From NCBI GenBank assembly GCA_020086605.1, contig JACBWW010000008.1:18757352-18821351 (forward strand): a stretch of 64,000 nt of DNA. Reading direction: 5' to 3'. The stretch comes from Lanius collurio. Lineage: Eukaryota > Chordata > Aves > Passeriformes > Laniidae. The notes beneath the pieces are model-generated. The model did no database searches. It was not told where the DNA came from and saw nothing but the letters and a program-made list of their open reading frames with translations. Below, piece by piece: positions 11,006 through 49,647 of the stretch (its first letter is position 1; each line of letters begins with the position of its first letter). The position numbers and the translations under genes were made by a program.

Positions 11006-11375
11006 NNNNNNNNNNNNNNNNNNNNNNNNNNNNNNNNNNNNNNNNNNNNNNNNNNNNNNNNNNNNNNNNNNNNNNNNNNNNNNNNNNNNNNNNNNNNNNN
11101 NNNNNNNNNNNNNNNNNNNNNNNNNNNNNNNNNNNNNNNNNNNNNNNNNNNNNNNNNNNNNNNNNNNNNNNNNNNNNNNNNNNNNNNNNNNNNNNNNNNN
11201 NNNNNNNNNNNNNNNNNNNNNNNNNNNNNNNNNNNNNNNNNNNNNNNNNNNNNNNNNNNNNNNNNNNNNNNNNNNNNNNNNNNNNNNNNNNNNNNNNNNN
11301 NNNNNNNNNNNNNNNNNNNNNNNNNNNNNNNNNNNNNNNNNNNNNNNNNNNNNNNNNNNNNNNNNNNNNNNNNNN
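11006..11375. other. Assembly gap (370 N)
   Basis: The bases are undetermined. The gap begins in AT-rich sequence and ends inside the first visible unit of a 19-bp GC-rich tandem repeat, so it probably contains more of that repeat or the GC-rich sequence around it. Confidence 0.99.
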
Positions 11376-11562
11376 ATCCCGCTCCCGCCCCGTCATCCCG
11401 CTCCCATCCTGTTATCCTTCTCCCGTCCCGTTATTCTGCTCCCGCCCCATCATCCCTCTCCCATCTCGTTATCCGTCTCCCATTCCGTTATCCCGCTCCC
11501 GCCCCGCTATCCCACTCCCGTCCCGTTATCCCGATCCTGCCTCTTTATCCCGCTCCCGCATT
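11376..11562. repeat. 19-bp GC-rich minisatellite, about 10 units
   Basis: Nearly ten tandem 19-base units of the form ATCCCGCTCCCGCCCCGTC continue to 11562. The frame is kept by ATCC or ATTC at the start of each unit, with substitutions at most other positions (for example TGTT, CATC or CGCT at the unit end). The array abuts the gap and probably extends into it. Confidence 0.93.
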
Positions 11563-19900: not shown

Positions 19901-22520
19901 AAGAAGACAGTGCAAAGACTTCTTTTGAACAGAACTGAAGAAAGAAGTCACTTGTTAGATCCAGATGGCCTTTAGTTTTTACCTAAGGAAGTATGACAAA
20001 AAACCCGTATATTTTACATTTTGTTTAAAAAGTCTAGTATCAAAAAGCTTGGCGTGTAATTAAGCAGAAAACTCACTTTCCATGTATTTTTAAACATAAG
20101 ATTTCACTTCTACTGGAAATAATGAGAAGGCGGAACCTATTATTCTGCCTGAGACCTACATCCATGTGTATTCTATCATAGTACTTAATGAGTTTTGTAG
20201 CTTGCTCTTCTCAAATGGGAATAGTTTCACCACATAAACAGTAGGTTTAACACGGGGAACAAACACGATGTTGGTTTTTAAAAGTAATTCATCAGAAAGT
20301 GAAGATGAGAGCAAACGGGAGCTTCAATTATACAGAGGAAAAACAGGTGTATCAATCAATACACTGCACGTATGTAGTAGCTCTTGAGTCAGCCATGCCC
20401 AACAGCATTCAAGAAGCTGGCTTTAGATTTATCACAGAGCTGGCACCTGCTGCTGTTCTTCAGTAGAAGGTGGCTACATAGTCTATTTGATTTGCAGCAA
20501 CAATATTTACCAGATGAGAGGGCAGTCATAGGGAAGAATTTCAAGAAAGATACCTGAGCTGCCTCCACAGCTCAGGAAAGTACACTGGGGCAGTGCCCAG
20601 GCTCTGAATCACAATGAGAAGGAGAAACATAGATTTCAACCATATGAGCAACAGAGGCACTGGAAAGTCATGTAAAAGTGGACAGACAGGGGAAATTGCT
20701 TTTCTGCAATTTTAGGCAGAAGTTGATTTGTGTATGCAGGTGAGATGCAGCAGAATAATGCAAAAAAGAAAAGAAACTTTGCTGCCCAGAGACTGGTGAG
20801 CACTGTACACATATTGCCAGGACAGAGAAGAGCTCTTACAAAATTTCATGACCCCAGGATTATTCCTTAAAAGAATCTTTACTGCTTTCTGGAAAAAAAA
20901 TTACCAGTTGATGCTGAGAACAAACATAGTTTGTAAGTGCCTCACACCATAAGCAAAACCATGTTGGGTTCAAATCCACATGCTTACACTAGTGTCCTAT
21001 GCTTTGTAACACTTTCCTAAGAGAACAAATCTAGTCACCCAGCATATGCTTTTCTTTGCTCCTGCAAAGCTACTTTAAACTACTTCGGCTACGTGAGTAT
21101 CCTGTTTTCCCGATGTCCCTGGATCTGCACTCCAGGGTTTTAACATGCAGTCTATACAAACATTTCAGGCCCTAGGCACTGTAGGCAATCTTGCTGAGTG
21201 TGTTAAACAATAAAGGATACTTAGTGCTGGTGCACAGTTGGCAAGGGAAGAATGAGTGTCTACTGTCCTTCAGCAGCATTGACCGCAAGGGTGTTAAACT
21301 CCAGCCATGGTCTCTAAGCTTTCCTCATGAATCTTCTGGGTCATCTCTCCCTGATAATCACCTTCAATCATTCCTTGGTAAAAGCAAGGAGTACAGTTAG
21401 AATTAAGCTCTAAAGGCACGTTCAATATGGGAGATTTTTCTCCGTGCTAACCAGAATTGCACATAGACCACACATACATTGCTTTGAACAGACACAGTAG
21501 AGGTTTTAATTTATATTCATATTTTATGTCTGACTATTGCAGTTGTCATTTAAGTGACAGAAGTCAGAGTTGGTAGCTCTCTGTTATACAATACTAGTGG
21601 CTGTGCTGTATTTATGCTGCAGTAGGCTGTAGTTTATGCACTAAAATCAGAAGTAGAAAAGGCGATTCATAACATTTAACTGTTTAGTTCATTTTTCTAT
21701 ATGATAATAATACAGGTATATTGTATACCTATTACAGTCTCAACCGCTTGAAGACAAGAAGATTAAACTAGTGAGAACATTTAAAATCTTCCCTTGTACA
21801 CCTAAGAAACAACCATAAAGAAGTCTGTTTTAAGGTAATAAATTAATGTTTACACTAGATTAGTAAAATATTGATTACTGTTAGCATAAAGTCAGCAATA
21901 TCTTTCAAAGTATTTATGTAGATGTCACACAATTTTTTTTGGAAATTTTTGATAAAACAAAGATAATGCCATTAACAATTTAAACTGACTGCACTTAAAG
22001 ACTGTACAACTGGGTACACAAATAAAGTTTGTGTTTCCTTTCTTTTAGAATTACTTTGACTAAGGTTATAATTATAGATAACTAAGGAAAAGGGATGCTC
22101 ATTTTGGGTTAGAGCCAAACCACTACATTATGATAAACATGTCAGTGGTATCAGTACATTTTTTCACATAAAACCTAGTTGTTTTGAGGAAAGATATACT
22201 GGAGATTATTTAAGCCTCATGGATCAACTGCACAAACATTTAATTCCTTTAGGATAGTTTAGAGCAGTCTTTATCCTCCACATTCCCTTCCTGCCCCCTT
22301 TTTCCAAAACTCTGGTGAAGGTTTTTGTCACATCTGATCTTGCTAATATCTTGATAGAGCTCTTTCAGATTGCTCTCAGATTCTTCTTACTCTTTTTCCT
22401 CTACCTGTCAGCACCAAAAGACTGAAATTCTCTGAACCCAGTTCAGAGTGCCCATCCAACAGGGCACTCCAGTCACAGGACTCATCCCACCAGATTTCCC
22501 TTATATCATGTTGTAGTGAG
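13987..22520. other. Noncoding DNA
   Basis: About 8.5 kb of AT-rich sequence without recognisable exons, tRNAs or transposons. The longest open frames (16669-17007, 18246-18503 and 18490-18711, all minus) show no domain, repeat structure or conserved-looking motif. Confidence 0.5.
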
Positions 22521-22804
22521 GGGAATTCTTACAACATATACATAAGACAGCAATGAACTTGGAAGGAAAGATGAAGTGATATTTCTTTAGATGTTCAGGG
22601 ATGATTTTATTCCTCCAGCCACACGGCTGGAGTTCCCAGGCAGACCCCAGTCATGGGACCCTGCTCTCTTCCCAGCCCCCAGGCACCCAAACCACCCAAT
22701 CAGGAACAGGTATGGGGCACACGTGGCATGGGGACAGGGACAGAGACAGACCTGTACACTGCAGGGTCTTTCCCCCCGGGATTCCAGGGGAAGGCACCTC
22801 CACA
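22521..22804 (-). mobile_element. ERV 3' LTR (left copy)
   Basis: This 284-base segment is a direct repeat of 24721-24999, with about 87% identity by eye. On the minus strand it begins TGTGGAGGTGCC, as LTRs begin with TG. A purine-rich tract, AAGAAAGGGTG, sits just before that start at 22807-22818, where a polypurine tract should be, so this is the 3' LTR of a minus-strand element. The outer end is uncertain because no clean target-site duplication is visible. Confidence 0.8.
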
Positions 22805-23020
22805 ATTCACCCTTTCTTATTAAATGAAATAACATTGGAAACAGCTGGATAAACAACAAAACATTTTCAAAGGAAAGGAAGCCACTATCTTGAGTCCCAA
22901 AGTCTCCAAACAGATTCTCTTTGGAACATCAGAAGGGAGACAGGACTTGAGCATGCTTCAGATGGAAACTGAGGAAGGGATTTTCCTTTCTGTACCTGTT
23001 GGAATCTTAGAAAATGACAG
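22805..23020 (-). other. ERV 3' untranslated part with polypurine tract
   Basis: About 216 bases lie between the cold-shock stop codon and the 3' LTR. The part next to the LTR is purine-rich (AAGAAAGGGTGAAT on the minus strand), consistent with the primer for plus-strand DNA synthesis. The remainder resembles nothing I can name and could be the captured transcript's 3' UTR or the parent virus's 3' end. Confidence 0.5.
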
Positions 23021-23482
23021 TTAATTTCTTCCCTCCCTCCTTTTCATCCCTCCCATCGGCATTGCAAAGGGATTCATGGTGAATGGAAAAGCCTGGTTTT
23101 GTGAGGGGTACCAGAAAGGGAAATTTGGGCTGGGCATATATGGGGGATAAAGAAGCATGGGATAAAAGGGGAAGGTGGAATAGGGGAAAGGATAGGGATT
23201 ATGGGGATATTGTCTAGCATATCTACTGCCTTTGACAGGGACACCCCCAGGGTCTGTAACACATGCAGCCTGTGGGCCCTTCCTTCCTTGCACAATTTTA
23301 AATTCTACTCTTTCTCCTTCTTCTAAGCTTGGAACATCACTTTTGGGGTTATTTTTTACAATAACAGATTTATGGACAAAAATAATTTCTCCAGTATCGT
23401 TTTTCAATAAGAAACCGTAATTTTTCTTTACATTATACCACTTTACAGTTCCAGCAACCCTAGCTGCAATAATTTTTTTCAT
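23021..23482 (-). CDS. Y-box-like cold-shock-domain protein inside an ERV
   Basis: This is an intact 153-codon ORF. The chosen ATG (23482-23480) has A at -3, and an in-frame stop lies a little upstream, so the longer frame from a GTG at 23512 is not used. Residues 6-90 match the cold-shock domain of Y-box proteins (YBX family, single-stranded RNA/DNA binding and translational control). RNP1 is seen as KNYGFLLK and RNP2 as IIFVHK; the contact residues corresponding to YBX1 Trp65, Phe74, Phe85 and His87 are present as W15, F24, F35 and H37. The domain ends with the family's GGVPVKGSRYA. The usual C-terminal basic/aromatic islands are replaced by a tail of about 60 residues rich in Pro, Phe, Tyr and Met, ending in a short basic stretch. 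It sits between two LTRs on the ERV's sense strand, without introns, which suggests retroviral capture of a cellular mRNA. An alternative is a processed Y-box copy that inserted into the provirus. Whether it is expressed is unknown. Confidence 0.8.
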   Translation of the reverse strand: MKKIIAARVAGTVKWYNVKKNYGFLLKNDTGEIIFVHKSVIVKNNPKSDVPSLEEGERVEFKIVQGRKGPQAACVTDPGGVPVKGSRYARQYPHNPYPFPYSTFPFYPMLLYPPYMPSPNFPFWYPSQNQAFPFTMNPFAMPMGGMKRREGRN

Positions 23483-23514
23483 TTTTCCGAGTTTCTTTGT
23501 TCTTGCTTTCACTT

Positions 23515-24310
23515 TCGGTTTTTCTCACTCTCGTGTCGGAGCTGCCGCAGCCGGGACCGCTGGGGCTGGGGCCGCCAGCGCGTTCCTGTCACAGGGTCTG
23601 GACTCCTCGGGATCGCGTGTGGGGCCGAGTGGGTCTGGTCTGGCCGTGCTGCTGCACACTGACCCTGCCGGCTGCTCCGCCTTCGGCCACCTCTGCACCG
23701 CCGCTTGGCGCTGTGCTCGCTTCTCCTCTGGAGCTCCGTGTGACTGCTCCACGCTTTCTGGGCGTTCCCACGGCTGCACGGCCGTGCCCTGTGAGGCGTT
23801 CGCGTGTGCGCGGCTTTGTACCGCCGGTGCTGCCGCTGCTGCTGCTGTCGGCTGTGTCACTGCTGGGCACTAGCGCAGTTCCCTTCTCACCCCCACGGCC
23901 CTCTGGCTCTGCTCGGTTTGGCTCACTGTGGTCGCCATAGCGACTGTCACAATCGCTGCTGCCTTTCTCAGCGCAGGGCTGGGAGCGTCGCTCGCCACAC
24001 GACGTGGGGCGGCCATCACCGGCTCACACCTTGGCTGCCACCACTGTCGCCTCTGCCTCAGGACGAACACTGCCAGGCCCAAGCCACCGCGCTGCTCCTG
24101 GCTCCACTCTCGCCACCTCCGGTCTCCCTGCCGGCTCTGCTCCCGCCGTGCCTGGCCTCACTGGCTCTCCCACACCCGGGAGCTCTCTCGCCGCCGCCCG
24201 CAATGCACTTGGCGCCCATGGCCGGGGCCACGCATTCTCCAGGGTGGCGGAGGAGCCCGCTGCAACTCGAGCGCTGCTCGACCACGTGTTCACTGCTGGA
24301 ACCGCAGCAG
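23515..24310 (-). other. GC- and CpG-rich block inside the ERV
   Basis: Composition jumps abruptly at both borders from about 40% GC to very high GC with dense CpG. In several minus-strand frames it encodes Ala/Pro/Gly/Arg-rich sequence. The first part is read as the C-terminal half of the gag-like ORF (to 24024). The rest precedes the cold-shock ORF and could be the captured gene's 5' exon or UTR, since Y-box genes have GC-rich, Ala/Pro-rich first exons. The original frame may have been broken here. Confidence 0.6.
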
Positions 24311-24620
24311 AACACAGCTGATATTGCTCAACAGTCTCCAAAATCAGGTAATATTCATGGAAATAGTCCTGCATCAGCAAGTTTTTTGATTCGGAAATTA
24401 ACTGTGTCCAAACATTCTTCCAAAAGTCCTTGGTAAGAATCAAATCCCAAGAAACATAGAAGACGTTTTTAAACAGCCATGCCAAAAAGTGTCTTAATTC
24501 TTTCTGAGTTTGAATTAAGCTAAAATCTACATATTGCTGTTTAAGAACCTTTTTAACTTTAAGGTAAATGTCTCTTTGTGGTTCAAACAGCCATGAGTCC
24601 TTCCATGAGTCCTCCATCAT
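24024..24620 (-). CDS. Gag-like ORF: matrix-like N-terminus plus Ala/Pro-rich tail
   Basis: A 198-codon ORF starts with tandem methionines about 100 bases inside the 5' LTR. Residues 1-110 are rich in Trp, Phe, Leu and Lys (motif FWKNVWTQLIS near 76-86) and look like a helical retroviral matrix domain, by general character rather than by exact match. From about residue 105 the sequence switches into the GC-rich block and becomes Ala/Pro/Gly/Arg-rich until the stop. No capsid, major homology region or zinc-knuckle motif follows, so gag is truncated. The function is presumably defunct, though in transducing retroviruses a gag remnant often leads into the captured gene. Here a stop and frame change separate the two. 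Confidence 0.6.
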   Translation of the reverse strand: MMEDSWKDSWLFEPQRDIYLKVKKVLKQQYVDFSLIQTQKELRHFLAWLFKNVFYVSWDLILTKDFWKNVWTQLISESKNLLMQDYFHEYYLILETVEQYQLCSAAVPAVNTWSSSARVAAGSSATLENAWPRPWAPSALRAAARELPGVGEPVRPGTAGAEPAGRPEVARVEPGAARWLGPGSVRPEAEATVVAAKV

Positions 24621-24720
24621 TCAGAGATGGGACATCAAAACGAAAGCAAGAAGAGATATCGAGAGTTACTCACGAATTATCTTCTTCAGGGATCGTTTGC
24701 CAGCATTTCTCCACCATTTG

Positions 24721-24999
24721 GGAATCCTTACAACATATATATAGGACAGCAATAGACTTAGAAGAAAAGATGAAGAGATATTTTTGTAGATGTTCTGAGA
24801 TTCTTTAATCCTCCAGCTGCATGGTTGGAGTTCCCAGGCAGCCCAGTCATCGGACCCTGCTCTCTCCTGGGCCCTGGGCACACCAACACACCCAATCAGG
24901 AACAGGTATGGGGCACACGTGACATGGGAGCAGGGACAGGGACAGACCTGTACCCTGCAGGGTCCTTCCCCCCGGAATTTCAGGGGAGGCACCTCCACA
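24721..24999 (-). mobile_element. ERV 5' LTR (right copy)
   Basis: This is the partner of the 22521-22804 repeat. On the minus strand it starts TGTGGAGGTGCC at 24999 and contains ATTAAA (24809-24804) as a likely polyadenylation signal. Downstream of it lies AAATGGTGGAGAAATGC, which begins with TGG as primer-binding sites do, but the tRNA could not be identified. An E-box-like CACGTG core is visible at about 24915. Confidence 0.8.
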
Positions 25000-27900
25000 G
25001 TGTCAAATCTTGGGCCTGGGCCAAAGCCTCCAACTCCTCTTCTTTGTTCCTCTCCTACATGCATTGGCATAGAAACATTTCCACATGTGGTACTTCATAC
25101 CCAAATTATGGTGAAGCAAATTGAGGGTTACCATTAGTGCTCATTTCCTCAAGCTTTGGCACACCATCCCATTGCTCATCACTGCTGAGCCTGGTTCCCT
25201 TCCCCCTTCCAAGCTAGTTTAGAGCTCTTTCAATGAGCCCATCTAGCTCCTGTGCTAGTGTCATGTATTTAAATGAAGCCATGACTTTCCACTTTCTAAA
25301 CTAAGCTATCTTGGATACTAAAAATGATTTGCACTGCAACTCGATCCTTCTTTGGTCAGAGACTCTTCCAGGCTAGAAATACTTTCTGGAAAAAATTTGT
25401 CAGAATCTTAATCATCAGTGTCAATGGCTGTGAAGATGCTTTATTGTAATTGGTCCCTTGACTTTTCATATGCCTCAGTTCCCTTGGTTTGCTTGTTATG
25501 CAGAGATTATTCTCTTAACAAGGTGAGTTAAAAAGCATATGTCATTCTGCTTTTGAACTAGTTCAATAATTACTTCAGATGGGTGGCTGAATTAATTTCA
25601 GGTCCATAAAAGTCAATAGTTTTTCCACTCATTTCCATGATCCCAGCCTGCCTTTGCTAATGAAAAACATCTTTTGACATGGACTCAAGACTTTTTTTCT
25701 TTTACTTCTAATCAGCACTGAAGAATAATTTTCCAGAATTCATGTTGTTCATATTGTTTTCCATTTGAAACCACAGAGTTCTGTTTCACAAGGGATTCAT
25801 ATCTAACTCATTCTGTGGCTTTATATGAGTTAGCTTCTGTATAGAAATCCCCAAATGCACCAACAGGAAAAAAACACTTTCCACAGCCTCCCATTATGTT
25901 TGACTCAATCACAATATCTAACTTGTTTACATTGTTTCAAATTAAACACTTGCTGAACCAAAGCCTAATCTCCAACACAATTTTAATGTATCTCCTAGAG
26001 TTCACTGCATTTTAGCTACACAACAAATGTTTTTTATTTTGAAAATATACCCTCAAAATACTCAGGTCTCATGGCAATTAAGATCATCAATAGTACTATT
26101 TGCACCCTTGGTTGCCATATGTTACTTTCAAATACTCACATTGCTCTCCAGAATATTCCCCAAATATTACTTTAGAACATTTTCCGATACACTTATTCAG
26201 AGTTCTTTGCTATCAGTTTATGAAAAGATTAATATTAGTACTGTGACACCACATCACATTTTAAATACACATTGAGGCAGCTTTTTGACTTCCCTACTAC
26301 AGTTTATTCCAAGTTTGATGATGAAAAGGCCTAAGTAGAAACTCTTCCTCCATCCCACATTATGCAAATCAGAGGGAGTGGACATCTGTGCCACTGGCAT
26401 CTCTGAACTCTTTGACATGTAAACATTTGTCCTGAAGTTCTTCATAGATGTTCCACATCATAACATTTTTTCAACAGATCATTAAATACAGATCCCATGA
26501 AGTTTTAAGAGTCAGGAGCCCTTGGCTTGTGTGCATGTCTATGCCCTCTGACCATTCTGGCAGCGTTTCTCAGCTCTCCTTTCCAGCAGCTGTGTTGCTG
26601 TAGCAAACTGGGATCAAGAAAGGAATCTCACCACTGAGATTTGATAGTTATGGAAAATCAATGGCGTTAAACTCCGAATTGGGAAAATACTTTAACATAT
26701 CAGCCAAGGCCATATTGGCTGGGTTTCCACTTTTCATCATATGTTTTAACTGTCTAGTTTAGCAGCAACCTAATACCTAAGTACCTTTCTGCTATTTCTC
26801 CTCTTGTAGGTGATGTGGTGTCTCATTTCTCCTTTGTGAGTAATTGTTGTTCTAGTGAATCTTAGTTAGGAAAATGATTTTTCACAAATATATTAGAAAA
26901 TGTTTTCTGGGTTTATTAATTTCTTACTAGAAGTTAAATGTGCACAGGGAGTTTGGCTGGTAAAATACTTGCTAAAAGATTACTCCATCTTCTGGATCAA
27001 TCACTAACAAAGAACTAAAATTTGACTTGGCATTAACAGTCTTTTGGAAGAGAATGTTTTCCACACACCCACATATGCACATACACTCTCATCTAGGCAG
27101 CTCCCCCTCCTGTCACCATCATTTTTTTACAGACATGAAGACAATTTCTTTTAACACTGCTTTTTCCTGAGATGTTTTTAATTATGTTTTCTGTTAAGTT
27201 TTTGTAAAGCACTTAATCAAATCACTAGTTAAATCTGGATTGCACTGACTGATGTCAATCCTTTAATTTCTCAGGGTTGACCACATTCATCCAGTATCTT
27301 CATATATTCTTTATACACTCATTCTTCATACACTTATACCAGGGTTTTTTTCAGTTCCATTAACTTTGACAAACTTAATCTTCCTACTCCCTGTTGTGCC
27401 TTAAGGAAAGGTAAGTACACCTTTCATTAAACTTTTTCATCTTCATTTCCTCATCACAATTAATTTAATAACTTTAAAAATGCCAATCTCACCTAGTCCA
27501 TGCTATCTTTATTTTTTTTTCAGTTATTGATCTATTTTCTTAATTTAAATACTGATTCTTGCACTTGCAGCTTGACCTTCTACACAAACAGTTGTCTGCT
27601 CTTCATACGTACTACTTTCTTCCCTTGACTTTCCTCTGGCCACAGACACTGACGCAACTTCAATTACCTCCTGGCTGAGCTTCAGATCTGAGTCTTTGAT
27701 CTGCCCCTCCTTCATGCCCTTTGTAAGCCTCTCAGGCTTCCGGCCTGTGTCTGAATTAGCCACAGTATCCAAAGGTGTGCAACACAGTAAAAGTTTTGAA
27801 ACATTTCTCACCGCAAAAAAAATCCAGGAAATCAATTAGAGAGGAACAGGCAAAACAGTATGCACGCCATTTTCTCAGAAACACTCAGCCGAAATAGTTC

Positions 27901-28934: not shown

Positions 28935-29659
28935 TGTAGTAAATAAAAAGGTTCTGCAGGACACATTCGGTTTGGGTGATATCTACAGTTCAAGGCAGCT
29001 CCTGAAACATGCAGTTTATTTGCAATGGTCATGGGGCAGGAGCTCTGCTTAAGGTGCCAGCCACAGCTTAGAGCATGGCCCAGAGAGAGCGAGAGAGGTA
29101 GAGCAGGAGATAGAGATCGAGAGAGAGAGATTGCCAGAGAGATTGAGAGATTGCGAGAGAGAGAGATTGCAAGAGACAGATTACTAGAGAGAGAGATTGA
29201 GAGAGAGCTAAAAGTCTGGTTCCATGATATTATATCTTTTCTTATTCTGAATATGGCAATAGTACAACATCCAATCAATAGAAGGCAGAAATCCTTATAG
29301 AATTTAAATACAACCTATCAAAACTACTACATTACCATACTGTGTTACATTTTAACTCCTAAAAACTACTTTCTAAAACTACTTTTGTCTTCCCTGCCGT
29401 GCTGGCAGGGTTTCTCTGACCCTTGGACTTCTCTGCTTGCTGAAGCATCCTCTTCTTTGCTAAAGACGTTGTTCAATCAAGAGGGATTCTCCCTCAGCTG
29501 GCTAGCCCGTTGTTTTTTGGTTGTACAGTAACTAACAGCTTGGTATCTTATATCTCAAAGCTAGCTTTCATTTCTATTTCACTTACAGGTTTCATATTTT
29601 CAGAATCTTTTGCCAAGCAGTCATATTTATAAGGTTTCCCTATTTCATCCTCCCCAACA
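28935..29659 (-). mobile_element. Solo LTR, family A, with 5-bp TSD TCCTC
   Basis: This is a 725-bp LTR whose plus-strand ends are TGTAG...CCCCAACA. It is flanked by perfect TCCTC duplications at 28930-28934 and 29660-29664. The minus-strand orientation is suggested by AATAAA in the GCAAATAAACTGC context near its minus-strand 3' part. It is very similar (above 90% by eye) to the LTR at 34907-35549 but has a longer GA-rich tract. The 5-bp duplication is typical of ERVL-like integration. Confidence 0.88.
29081..29208. repeat. (GA)n-rich tract inside the solo LTR
   Basis: Imperfect GAGAGA runs are interspersed with GATTGC and GATTGA units over about 128 bases. The sister LTR has only about 78 bases of the same tract, so the repeat length varies between copies. 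Confidence 0.88.
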
Positions 29660-34695: not shown

Positions 34696-36477
34696 CGCAT
34701 TAGGTTTTTATGTCCAAATTTTGGAAGTGGGGAGCTACAGGGGTGGCTTCTGTGAGAAGCTTCCTCCATGCTCCCCTGCTTCAATGTCAGCTGGCCCCAG
34801 GACAGATGCATCACTGGCCAAGGCTGGGCCCATCAGAAATGGTGGTAATGCCCCTGCAATGACGTATTTAAGAAAAATAAAAAACATGTTATTGCACAGA
34901 TGTAATTGTAAAAAATAAAAAGGTGCCAGGGACAAGGCAGTTTGGGTGATTTCTACAGTTCAAGGCAGCTCCTGAAACGTGCAGTTTATTTGCAATGGTC
35001 ATGGGGGCAGGAGCTCTGCTTAAGCTGCCAGCCACAGCTTAGAGCATGGCCCAGAGAGAGAGAGAGAGGTAGAGAGGGCTAAAGTCAAGAGAGAGACAGA
35101 GAGGGAGAGAGAGAGATTGCAAGAGAGTTAAGGTCTGGTTCCGTGATATTATAGCTCTTCTTATACTGAATATGGTAATAGTACAACATCCAAGACAGAA
35201 ATCCTTGCAGAATTCATATACAACCTATCAAAACTACTACATTACCATACTGTGTTACATTTTAACTCCTAAAAACTACTTTCTAAAACTACTGGCAGGG
35301 TTTCTCTGACCCTTGGACTTCTCTGCTTGCTGAAGCATCCTCTTCTTTGCTAAAGACATTGTTCAATCAAGAGGGATTCTCCCTCAGCTGGCTAGCCCAT
35401 TGTTTTTTGGTTGTACAGTAACTAACAGCTTGGTATCCTATATCTCAAAGCTAGCTTTCATTTCTATTTCGCTTACAGGTTTCATATTTTCAGAATCTTT
35501 TGCCAAGCAGTCATATTTATAAGATTTCCCTATTTCATCCTCCCCAACAGTAATTGTGGCCAGAGAGGAGCAGAGTGAATATACATGAGAGGAAGAGCCC
35601 TGCAGACACTAAGGTTGGGGCAGAAGGAGGGGCAGGAGATGTTTCAGGTGCCAGAGCTGAGGTTCCCCTGCAGCCCGTGGAGCAGACCATGGTAAGACAG
35701 CTGTGCCCCTGCAGATCACAAGGATGCAGAGATCCACCTGCAGCCTGTGGAGGTCGCTGGGGATGTAGAAGTCTACCTGCAGGTCAGGGAGGAGACCCAT
35801 GCTGGAGCAAGTGGATAGCTGGGACAAGGCTGTGACCCCGTGGGAGGCCTGTGCTGGAGCAGGATCCTGGCAGGGACCTGCAGATGCATGGAGAGGAGCT
35901 CGCGCTGGAACACATTTCCTGGTAGGACTTGTGACCCTGTGGGGGACCCACACTGGAGCAGGCTGTTCCTGAAGGATTGTACCCCGTGGAAGAATGACCC
36001 ACATTGTGGTAGTTTGTGGAGAGCTGTTGTCCATGGGAAGGACTCACATTGAAGAAGTTCATGGAGAACTGACTCCCATGTGAGGGACCCCAGGACTCCA
36101 TGTTGCAGCAGGAGAAGGACACCTCTCCCTGGGCAGTGGCAGGGACCAGGTGTGATGAACTGACCATAACCCCCATTCCCTGTCTCCCTGTGCCACTAGG
36201 TGGGAGCAGAGCTGAAAAGGAAGGAGGGGTGAGAGGAAGGTGTTTTTAAGGTCTTATCTTACTCAGTTATCCCAGTTTAATTTTGTTAGTAATAAATTCA
36301 ATTAATATCTCTAATTCTAGCTTGTTTTGCCAATGACAGTGTTTGGTGAGTGATCGCTCTCCGACCTTATCTCAACTGATGAACCCTCTGTTACATTTTC
36401 TCTCCCCTGTTCAGCTGCAGAGGGGAGTGATAGGCTTTGGTAGGTGCCTGGCATCCAGCCAGCATGAACTCACTACA
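34696..36477 (+). mobile_element. Old ERVL-type solo LTR, split by a nested LTR
   Basis: Two blocks, 34696-34906 and 35555-36477, form one LTR of about 1.13 kb. The first has the CCATCAGAAATGGTGGTAA and ACGTATTTAAGAAAAATAAA-type region. The second has the repetitive GACCCACACTGGAGCAGG-like units, AATAAA at about 36291, and the end GGCATCCAGCCAGC...CACTACA. A perfect 5-bp duplication, AAAGG, flanks the whole at 34691-34695 and 36478-36482. The starting TG is mutated to CG. This is a widespread avian LTR type. Confidence 0.82.
34907..35549 (-). mobile_element. Solo LTR, family A, nested, with 5-bp TSD GTAAT
   Basis: This 643-bp LTR has plus-strand ends TGTAAAAAATAAAAAGG and CCCCAACA. It is flanked by GTAAT at 34902-34906 and 35550-35554 and is inserted inside the older LTR that surrounds it. 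It matches 28935-29659 almost base for base outside the GA tract (35052-35129 here) and a few short indels. Confidence 0.9.
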
Positions 36478-41357: not shown

Positions 41358-41362
41358 GTCCA

Positions 41363-42211
41363 TGTTATAAATGAGTCAAAATTCATAATAAATTAAATGG
41401 TATCAAGGTTGATTTTAAGTATAAGGGATATTAGACTGTACATGTATCCAAAGATGTTATGTTTGGAATGTGCCTTGGCATGTTCCCTGGTAGCCCACCC
41501 AGAGTCACGGGTTACCCTTCTCAGTGATAACATTTGCATCTGAAGCACAGGCAGAACTTCGCACCTCCACCAGAGAGGTCTCAAGTACCCATCATCATCA
41601 GGAAGCCAGATATCCATCTGGCACATCAACCTACTCCAAATCCACTCTGCCTTTGGAAAATCCTTTTTCCATCTGAAAGGAGCAACAGATATGATCACCT
41701 AAGTTTCTGTTCCTCCCTGGACCATGCTGATGAACGGACCTCTTACCTAAGACTCTTCGTTTTAATTACACAAGGGGGTTCCTGGAAACATCAACATCTG
41801 AACAGACCCTTTACTAGAATCACAAGAGTTCCTGGAAATATCAACCAAAAACACAAAGAGAGTTCCTGGACACATCAACATCTGAACGGACCCCTGATCT
41901 CTGGACCAGAGGACCATAGAAGACAAGATGAATATGAAAAAGACAAAGGATTTTCTAGCCGGAGGCAAGAAAAACAGTATAAAAACCAGACCCAGAAACC
42001 TCGAAGGTGTGCACTACCTACCCGAACTGCTGGTGTTCAGGGCTGTGTATGTGTCACCCAGGGTCAAGAACCTAGGCTTGACTCTGCCGTTTTATAGTGG
42101 CTATTCAAAATTGTCAATTTGATCATCAAATAAACTCTGTTTGTTTTTATATTAATAATTTGGCTCATGCAATTTATTAATTCTATTTAATTGGCAGTTT
42201 CATTTATAACA
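41363..42211 (+). mobile_element. Solo LTR, family B copy 1, with 5-bp TSD GTCCA
   Basis: This 849-bp LTR begins TGTTATAAATGAG and ends TTCATTTATAACA, so its ends are near-palindromic. GTCCA flanks it at 41358-41362 and 42212-42216. A TATA box, TATAAAAA, is at 41978-41985 and AATAAA at 42129-42134, which sets the plus orientation and puts U3 at about 600 bases. U3 carries three related TTCCTGGAAA/ACA-type repeats starting at 41779, 41829 and 41863. A long sense ORF crosses U3 into R (41534-42097). Confidence 0.92.
41534..42097 (+). other. 187-codon ORF within LTR family B copy 1
   Basis: The frame is open across most of U3 and past the TATA box. The predicted product is hydrophilic, rich in His, Gln, Arg and Pro, with an internal repeat (KHQHLNRP / THQHLNGP). 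The inverted copy at 49482-48916 keeps the same frame. No known domain is recognised. It may be a by-product of a young LTR rather than a gene. Confidence 0.3.
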
Positions 42212-45854: not shown

Positions 45855-46831
45855 AAAAGGAACAGGAGGCTTGCATGGATGAAAAAGGAGCTCCTGTCAG
45901 TGGTCAGGACATAAACATGGGATATGTATCAGGGGGAAGCAGGGACAGACCACCTGGGATGGATATAGGGGTGTTATAAATGAAATGTCAATTTCATCGG
46001 ATTAATAATTTGCGCAAGCCAAATTATTAATATAAAAACAAATAAAATTTATTTCAATCAAATTGACAATCAAGATCAGCCACTATAAAAGAAAGCAGGG
46101 CCAAGCCTAGGTTCTTGACTCTGGGTGACACATACACAGCTCTGACCACCAGCAGTTCAGAGAGGTAAGTGCACACCTTTGAGATGTTTGAGTCCAGTTT
46201 TTATACTGTTTTTCTTGCTCTTGGCTATGAAATCCATTGTCCTTTTCATTCCTGATGATACTCAGGTCTGGTGCTCAGTGGTACATTTAGATGTTGATGT
46301 GTCCAAGGATTCTCTTTGTGTTCTGGTTGATGGTTTCCAGTAACTCATCCCAACCTATGATGATCTTTCCGAGAAATCCTTATATGATGACAATGAGGTA
46401 TCTCGAGCAATAGGTCCATTCATCAGCACTGTCCAGGGAGCAGCAGATCCTATCTCTTGCTTATTTCAGATGGAAAAAGATTCTTGTTGGGTAAGGTGAA
46501 ATCATGGGTCTGAGGTCATCCCTTGAGCTTGCCTGCATTTCTTATGTTAATTAGTACCTTCCTTGAGCAAGATGTCATGAGACTTGCCAAGGTGTACTCT
46601 GAACACAACTAAGTTTAAACATATATACAATTTACAAGATATAGTTTACATTTTAGATCTCACATTAATAACTTATTACATTTATAGTGTTTTAATTCCT
46701 TATGAATTTTGAGTCATCTACAACAGGGGTATTGTAAGAGTATGCAGAAAGACAGTGAAGAAGGCCAACACCCATTTGGAATTAAATCTGGCCAAGAACA
46801 TCAAGGATCACAAGAAGGGTTTCTTCAAATA
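45855..46831 (+). mobile_element. CR1 ORF2 internal fragment, split by an LTR
   Basis: The two parts 45855-45971 and 46730-46831 join into one CR1 ORF2 stretch. The first part includes GCTTGCATGGATGAAAAAGG. The second includes CATTTGGAATTAAATCTGG and CAAGAAGGGTTTCTTCAAAT. LTR family B copy 3 sits between them. Confidence 0.78.
45972..46725 (-). mobile_element. Solo LTR, family B copy 3 (diverged)
   Basis: This 754-bp minus-strand copy of the 41363-42211 LTR runs from TGTTATAAATGAAA to CTACAACA on the plus strand. GGGG flanks it at 45968-45971 and 46726-46729. It is clearly older than the other two: it has many substitutions and deletions, and the long ORF is broken. Confidence 0.85.
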
Positions 46832-48801: not shown

Positions 48802-49643
48802 TGTTATAAATGAAACTGCAAATTAAATGGAATTAATATATTGCATGAGCCAAATTATTATTATAAAAACAAACAGAGATCATTTTATGATCAAATTGAT
48901 AATTTTGAATAGCCACTATGAAACGGCAGAGTCAAGCCTAGGTTCTTGACTCTGGGTGACACATACACAGCCCTGAACACCAGCAGTTTGGGTGGGTTGT
49001 GCACACCTTCGAGGTTTCTGAGTCCGGTTTTTATACTGTTTTTCTTGCCTCCGGCTAGAAAATCCTTTGTCTTTTTCATATTCATCTTGTCTTCTATGGT
49101 CCTCTGGTCCAGAGATCAGGGGTCCGTTCAGATGTTGATGTGTCCAGGAACTCTCTTTGTGTTTTTGGTTGATATTTCCAGGAACTCTTCTTGTGTCTTT
49201 AGTGAGAGGTCTGTTCAGATGTTGATGTTTCCAGGAACCCCCTTGTGTAATTAAAATGAAGAGTCTTAGGTAAGAGGTCCGTTCATCAGCATGGTCCAGG
49301 GAGGAACAGAAACTTAGATGATCATATCTGTTGCTCCTTTCAGATGGAAAAAGGATTTTCCAAGGGCAGAGTGGATTTGGAGTAGGTTGATGTGCCAGAT
49401 GGATATCTGGCTTCCTGATGATGGTGGGTACTTGAGACCTCTCTGGTGGAGGTGCCTGTGCTTCAGATGCAAATGTTATCACTGAGAAGGGTAACCCGTG
49501 ACTCTGGGTGGGCTACCAGGGAACATGCCAAGGTACATTCCAAACATAACATCTTTGGATACATGTACAGTCTAATATCCCTTATACTTAAAATCAACCT
49601 TGATACCATTTAATTTATTATGAATTTTGACTCATTTATAATA
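48802..49643 (-). mobile_element. Solo LTR, family B copy 2, inverted relative to copy 1
   Basis: This 842-bp LTR is nearly identical to the reverse complement of 41363-42211 (about 95% or more by eye). TCAG flanks it at 48798-48801 and 49644-49647. One terminal CA is changed to TA. It keeps the long sense ORF of the family (49482-48916). Confidence 0.9.
48916..49482 (-). other. 188-codon ORF within LTR family B copy 2
   Basis: This is the counterpart of the ORF at 41534-42097, with about a dozen residue changes and one in-frame length change. There is no recognised domain. It is listed because the frame is preserved in two independent insertions. Confidence 0.3.
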
Positions 49644-49647
49644 TCAG

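Follow-up and report, generated by a model that had tools for sequence, protein, structure and literature searches.

In a 64,000-nucleotide stretch of Lanius collurio DNA (contig JACBWW010000008.1, positions 18,757,352 to 18,821,351; hereafter the window), we analysed a small endogenous retrovirus (ERV) that carries a Y-box-type cold-shock domain (CSD). The element is oriented on the minus strand, where the window copy occupies about 24999-22509, and the family element is about 2.5 kb long. The results showed that the window copy is a member of a replicated non-autonomous ERV family, not a single insertion. We consider it likely that this is a multicopy, non-autonomous and probably class II-like ERV with a captured Y-box domain, transduced by a helper-dependent element. 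Its layout would be a long terminal repeat (LTR), a primer-binding site, a matrix (MA)-like domain, a GC-rich linker, the Y-box CSD, a purine tract and a second LTR. The original prediction had described a host-gene-transducing, replication-defective retrovirus; the defective ERV with an intronless CSD stood and proved to be replicated (CSD at 39/39 and 12/12 loci in two samples), and the capture of a host Y-box gene we still infer rather than see directly.

The genome (1.097 Gb in 2132 contigs) was searched with the CSD DNA, and the best 40 scored places of 1053 first-look candidates were retained, the 39 besides the window scoring 92-94% in that search. All 39 CSD loci besides the window, picked in this way by their likeness to the window CSD, were fetched. 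The CSD, the tail of its open reading frame (ORF) and at least one LTR were present in all 39, with 92-96% identity to the window in the CSD and 90-95% in the tail. A long LTR pair could be measured in 34/39 loci, giving element lengths of 2.06-2.63 kb in those 34, and the MA-like domain covered at least 90% of the window's length in 23/39. A search with the MA-like DNA alone gave the best 40 scored of 690 candidates, and the CSD was present in 12/12 loci sampled from it; these were upper-list rows of 39, the ones most like the window MA-like domain, and more distant relatives may lack the CSD. The co-occurrence that the original prediction had proposed to check was thus found in this genome both for LTR with CSD (39/39) and for MA-like domain with CSD (12/12), and the element belongs to a multicopy family instead of being a lone transducing provirus (among the best 40 of 1053 CSD candidates). 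The dispersed CSD-tail-LTR copies, the co-occurrence of MA-like domain and CSD, and the flanking 6-bp duplications described below indicate a replicated ERV family. Two loci, L030 and L043, sit on contigs C45 and C46 with identical flanks; they probably represent a single insertion that appears twice through haplotype or assembly duplication. L043 was left out of the tree and the flank-duplication counts and was kept in the open-frame, variant, LTR-distance and contact-residue counts.

The CSD lies in an intronless ORF at 23524-23021 on the minus strand (167 amino acids from stop to stop). The full cold-shock domain claimed for a same-strand intronless ORF was confirmed by the Pfam CSD family (E 6.7e-20) and by solved chains, among which human YBX1 was the best match (E 6.4e-31), followed by YBX2 (1.2e-29); other cold-shock chains were weaker (best bacterial chain 7.7e-13, best LIN28 chain 6.5e-8). 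The domain itself, placed by Pfam, the YBX1 alignment and the contact residues, spans 23206..23482. A gapless alignment of 88 residues showed identity of 51/88 to YBX1, 49/88 to YBX2 and 54/88 to P0001, a database Y-box protein taken as invertebrate. At residues that differentiate YBX1 from YBX2, the element CSD points both ways. The four residues that we take to be RNA contacts (W65, F74, F85 and H87) are kept in the window CSD, as in a Y-box-family domain, and were intact in 38, 38, 38 and 39 of the 39 copies; the commonest residue was found in a mean of 36.9/39 copies across the 88 positions. Three-base periodicity, measured against single-base shuffles, was clear in the CSD (z 5.3) and absent from its tail, the 3' non-coding part, the LTR and two flanks (z -1.3 to 0.3). 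An ORF of at least 167 codons appeared in any of six frames in 8/2000 dinucleotide shuffles of 23524-22808. Y-box proteins carry a C-terminal domain of alternating basic and acidic stretches; no such domain was found in this ORF, whose tail (23024..23205, minus strand) is aromatic/proline-rich instead, with a periodicity of z -0.5 and no coding signal found.

The window copy has the direct-orientation LTR pair that had been claimed for it, with 85.6% identity over 285 columns between 22521-22804 and 24720-24999 in a first pairwise comparison. The Kimura two-parameter distance of the pair was 0.172 (27 transitions, 16 transversions and 3 indel events over 283 columns). Comparison across copies showed that the LTR terminus CTACAACA is common to many of them, and on this basis the outer end of the 3' LTR was set to about 22509. 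The minus-strand LTRs accordingly lie at 24719..24999 (5') and 22509..22804 (3'), a direct pair bearing the TG...CA ends of ERVs and other LTR retroelements. Their flanks, TGACAC and TGATAT, are equal at 4/6 positions with both differences C/T, and form a possible target-site duplication at 25000..25005 (beside the 5' LTR) and 22503..22508 (beside the 3' LTR). The limits of the predicted span, 22521-24999, are better placed at 22503-25005, including the flanking duplication. A motif starting TGGTGGAG... two bases past the 5' LTR resembles a primer-binding site (24699..24716, minus strand); it is presumably tRNA-Ala-like, and a TGG-starting motif stands behind the LTR end in 29/40 loci. The purine tract of the original prediction was seen by eye immediately before the 3' LTR (22805..22818, minus strand). 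A comparison of the element with the 64-kb window gave no further matches elsewhere in it.

Integration was assessed from flanking 6-mers at 29 loci, including the window, that have both LTRs and a readable end; two further loci lacked a readable end. Six positions matched in 17 loci, five in 4, four in 2, three in 2 and one in 4, so that at least 5/6 positions agreed in 21/29 loci against 14/1450 background comparisons. This is a target-site duplication of fixed length, 6 bp, as made by ERVs and other LTR retroelements. A 6-bp duplication is the rule for class II (ERVK/betaretrovirus-like) elements, and the family is probably class II-like. LTR-pair distances in 34 copies had a median of 0.099 (range 0.040-0.179), corresponding to a median age of about 20 million years at a substitution rate of 2.5e-9 per site and year. 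The window distance of 0.172 comes close to the family maximum, yet its CSD end branch is average (0.039); the two LTRs of this copy may be different variants.

An alternative 5' region was found in eleven loci, namely L013 and ten others at 88.6-91.6% identity to it, one of them partial. One of its frames shows a diverged MA-like homologue (28 residues at 54%, E 1.4e-6), and the region adjoins the same GC-rich and CSD part. The 5' parts of L013, L023, L033 and L039 show this second, diverged MA-like domain next to the same GC-rich/CSD module. A tree of CSD plus tail (38 copies and the window) was star-like, with end branches of median 0.039 and 1/36 inner branches well supported, and the two 5' types were scattered over it (9 changes; 330/500 shuffles as low). 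The star-like tree and the scattered 5' types fit a burst of copies with recombination joining 5' and 3' parts; poor tree resolution weakens the recombination claim.

The N-terminal ORF begins past the leader and extends over 24620-24024 on the minus strand (198 amino acids), with the MA-like domain at 24318..24620. Its first 101 codons showed three-base periodicity (z 4.0 against single-base shuffles), and an ORF of at least 101 codons appeared in any of six frames in 73/2000 dinucleotide shuffles of 24720-24318. An outside relative, P0003, was 72% identical across 94% of the query, and a profile search with the MA-like domain returned P0003 again and nothing else. The N-terminal ORF is a real domain, because this 72% identical protein exists and the ORF recurs in other copies. 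The fold model was helical but of low confidence (pLDDT 66.6), without a clear structural match, and no Pfam family was above the cut-off for the N-terminal ORF of either type A or type B. The gag-matrix-like ORF of the original prediction thus holds as a recurring domain, with no matrix match by profile, sequence or fold, and the putative name "matrix" comes from the position in the element and the low-confidence helical model. The GC- and CpG-rich stretch downstream (23528..24317, minus strand) has a GC content of 0.69, a CpG observed/expected ratio of 0.79 and an excess of TpG and CpA, a composition that a formerly CpG-saturated sequence would take on as it decays. Its two halves showed three-base periodicity (z 3.6 and 5.6 against single-base shuffles), and it could derive from the CpG-rich 5' end of the donor or from a gag linker. 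The earlier statement that no pol or env is visible was borne out: neither was seen by eye in three frames of the element, and Pfam on four element ORFs gave only the CSD above the cut-off. The element therefore shows no pol of its own in these readings, and as in transducing retroviruses, a contiguous 88-codon CSD lies between the MA-like ORF and the 3' LTR with viral genes missing.

Open frames and variants among the copies were examined for selection. The CSD ORF was open in 18/39 copies, the CSD domain alone in 28/39 and the MA-like domain in 11/23; stops and frameshifts occurred mostly in one or two copies, with one tail frameshift in five. Variants were classed as singletons, doubletons, those in 3-5 copies and those in six or more, and the ratio of nonsynonymous to synonymous changes (N/S) was taken relative to expectation. 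In the CSD domain, the ratio was 0.96, 0.98 and 1.17 in the first three classes and 0.17 in the six-or-more class (4 N, 9 S). The MA-like domain gave 1.13, 0.57 and 1.00, then 0.16 (3 N, 7 S), and the tail 0.75, 0.66 and 0.66, then 1.49 (9 N, 2 S). Without CpG sites, the six-or-more class held 2 N and 4 S in the CSD and 1 N and 4 S in the MA-like domain. Fisher tests of six-or-more against one-or-two-copy variants gave p 0.005 for the CSD, 0.007 for the MA-like domain, 8e-5 for both pooled and 0.50 for the tail. Private variants in the copies look neutral, and these counts suggest selection on the active lineage in the CSD and the N-terminal domain. The evidence that both domains mattered while the element replicated, with neutral decay of the copies afterwards, is good yet short of final, because the six-copy cut was not set beforehand and variants among copies are not independent of one another.

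Several results count against a captured domain kept by selection beside a retroviral matrix domain. The six-copy cut was picked after the variant classes had been seen; with a three-copy cut, p was 0.022 pooled and 0.12 and 0.09 for the CSD and the MA-like domain taken separately, and CSD variants in 3-5 copies showed no constraint (12 N, 4 S). The spacing from MA-like domain to CSD was a multiple of three in 11/24 loci, with 8 and 5 loci in the other phases, and the open length upstream of the CSD fails to separate two of the three frames. In addition, neither Pfam nor solved-structure sequences nor fold searches recognise a retroviral matrix in the N-terminal ORF.

The distance between the element CSD and the YBX proteins was compared with simulated neutral drift. 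Drift from the YBX1 or YBX2 CSD to the observed distance required 0.25-0.29 changes per site, and the reading frame was kept in 0.2-0.5% of runs. The mean BLOSUM score at changed CSD sites was +0.27 or +0.26 against a neutral null of -0.59 to -0.76, and this conservativeness was reached in 0-0.1% of drift runs and in 0-0.35% of stop-free runs. Since neutral-drift runs rarely keep the frame or match this conservativeness, the CSD diverged under constraint, either within the element or within a diverged donor. If a rapidly evolving Y-box paralogue of the host served as donor, most of the divergence would precede the capture and the element would have exerted little selection; the sites separating YBX1 from YBX2, which point both ways, agree with this reading, the widely shared variants among element copies, which are mostly synonymous, do not, and we regard it as unlikely. 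We give a similarly low standing to the view that some retrovirus lineage, including autonomous members, has long had the CSD as a standard part of its Gag, the small elements being internal-deletion derivatives that kept it. Such an origin would suit a CSD divergence from YBX proteins that far exceeds the age of the copies, the CSD in 12/12 MA-chosen loci and its sharing by two diverged MA types, but no autonomous relative was seen among the 52 loci read (12 of just 0.7 kb; no genome search for pol was made).

An intronless ORF would also result if a processed Y-box pseudogene had landed in an ERV, whether or not that ERV later multiplied, and a 10-bp direct repeat stands near both junctions (34/1000 shuffles reach that length). 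This repeat is no insertion boundary, because homology of the MA-like ORF to its outside relative continues past it. No poly(A) was found, the longest A run from the CSD stop to the 3' LTR being 4, and the CSD sits conserved at the same position from copy to copy. With the CSD in 39/39 and 12/12 loci, the processed pseudogene was disfavoured, and we judge it very improbable. The observations named beforehand as contrary to capture, namely other LTR copies lacking the CSD or an ORF with its own target-site duplication and poly(A), were both looked for and neither was made. CR1 is believed to yield few retrocopies (78 found in chicken versus 4738 in human; PMC3136929), which also speaks against a processed pseudogene.

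The window locus might instead be a domesticated host gene derived from the element and retained by selection. Its MA-like and CSD frames are both open, which is unlikely under neutrality at the LTR distance of this copy (about 0.03 and 0.04); however, its CSD end branch is family-average (0.039), 18/39 other copies are open too, and the MA-like domain and the CSD are in different frames here. Domestication seems scarcely credible.

For the captured Y-box domain, which we prefer, a spliced host Y-box mRNA would have joined a retroviral 5' gag region by classical transduction. The pol and env genes would then have been lost and provided in trans by a helper; replication in trans is proposed because no pol was seen. 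The CSD protein, alone or fused to the MA-like domain, may bind RNA and help to stabilise the element RNA, to hold it back from translation, or to bring it to assembly or to helper Gag, and inserted copies would decay neutrally. Such a role would parallel that of host YB-1 for mouse mammary tumour virus (MMTV). A more specific version, which we offer tentatively, is that the Y-box domain replaces the capsid-nucleocapsid part of Gag, that a minimal MA-linker-CSD protein binds the RNA of the element and delivers it to helper particles, and that the CSD module was kept by selection as the 5' domain was swapped between two diverged MA types by recombination. If a captured RNA-binding domain was indeed retained while a defective element multiplied, elements of this sort would be able to equip themselves with mRNA-handling machinery of the host, and the family offers a natural test of why Y-box proteins are needed by retroviral RNA.

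Host-gene capture by ERVs is already known; most known retroviral captures concern growth-control genes in transforming viruses, with a few ERV cases such as KIT ligand and nectin3. In acute transforming retroviruses with gag-onc genes, as is proposed for the present element, a 5' gag piece precedes an intronless cellular domain between LTRs, and replication is in trans; those viruses are exogenous isolates whose donor sequences have hardly changed, whereas the present family is old, germline and multicopy, with a far diverged domain. The element CSD resembles those of YBX1 and YBX2 in the 88-residue gapless match and the four kept contact residues, and differs from them at 37 and 39 of 88 residues and in the aromatic/proline tail that replaces the basic/acidic C-terminal domain. 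Searches of the open literature, with subscription papers and repeat databases outside their scope, turned up no earlier account of an ERV family carrying a Y-box domain. The closest cases found were CrocERV31 (nectin3) and CrocERV29 (KIT ligand), crocodilian ERVs in which host mRNA-derived ORFs sit in multicopy lineages with purifying selection reported on them, nectin3 replacing env in CrocERV31 (PMC4299795). Those ERVs carry a KIT ligand or a nectin, whereas the present 2.5-kb element carries a nucleic-acid-binding domain with no pol or env seen. Host YB-1 is reported to co-localise with the Gag and RNA of MMTV, and fewer particles are produced when it is knocked down (PMC4486188). By analogy, a Y-box domain alongside retroviral Gag and RNA may play the role proposed here, with the difference that the host supplies YB-1 and the present element encodes its own domain. 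TguERVL2 of estrildid finches is likewise a songbird LTR element whose gag holds a domain that looks foreign, in that case herpesvirus-like; intact GAG, AP, RT and RH are reported for it, and neither "cold shock" nor "Y-box" occurs in that text (PMC6523648).

Other repeats were observed in the window. CR1-like fragments were noticed by eye, in keeping with a bird. An inverted pair at 41362-42211 and 48802-49644 is 95.3% identical over 853 columns, with the arms about 6.6 kb apart and containing open frames of 188 and 198 amino acids; a third copy lies at 45972-46479 (72-74% identity), and these may be copies of one repeat family. An N run followed by a GC-rich 57/19-bp tandem repeat occupies 11006-11559. 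Direct repeats at 28935-29659 and 34907-35549 lie about 5 kb apart with 83.8% identity over 727 columns; they may represent LTRs, or one repeat present twice.

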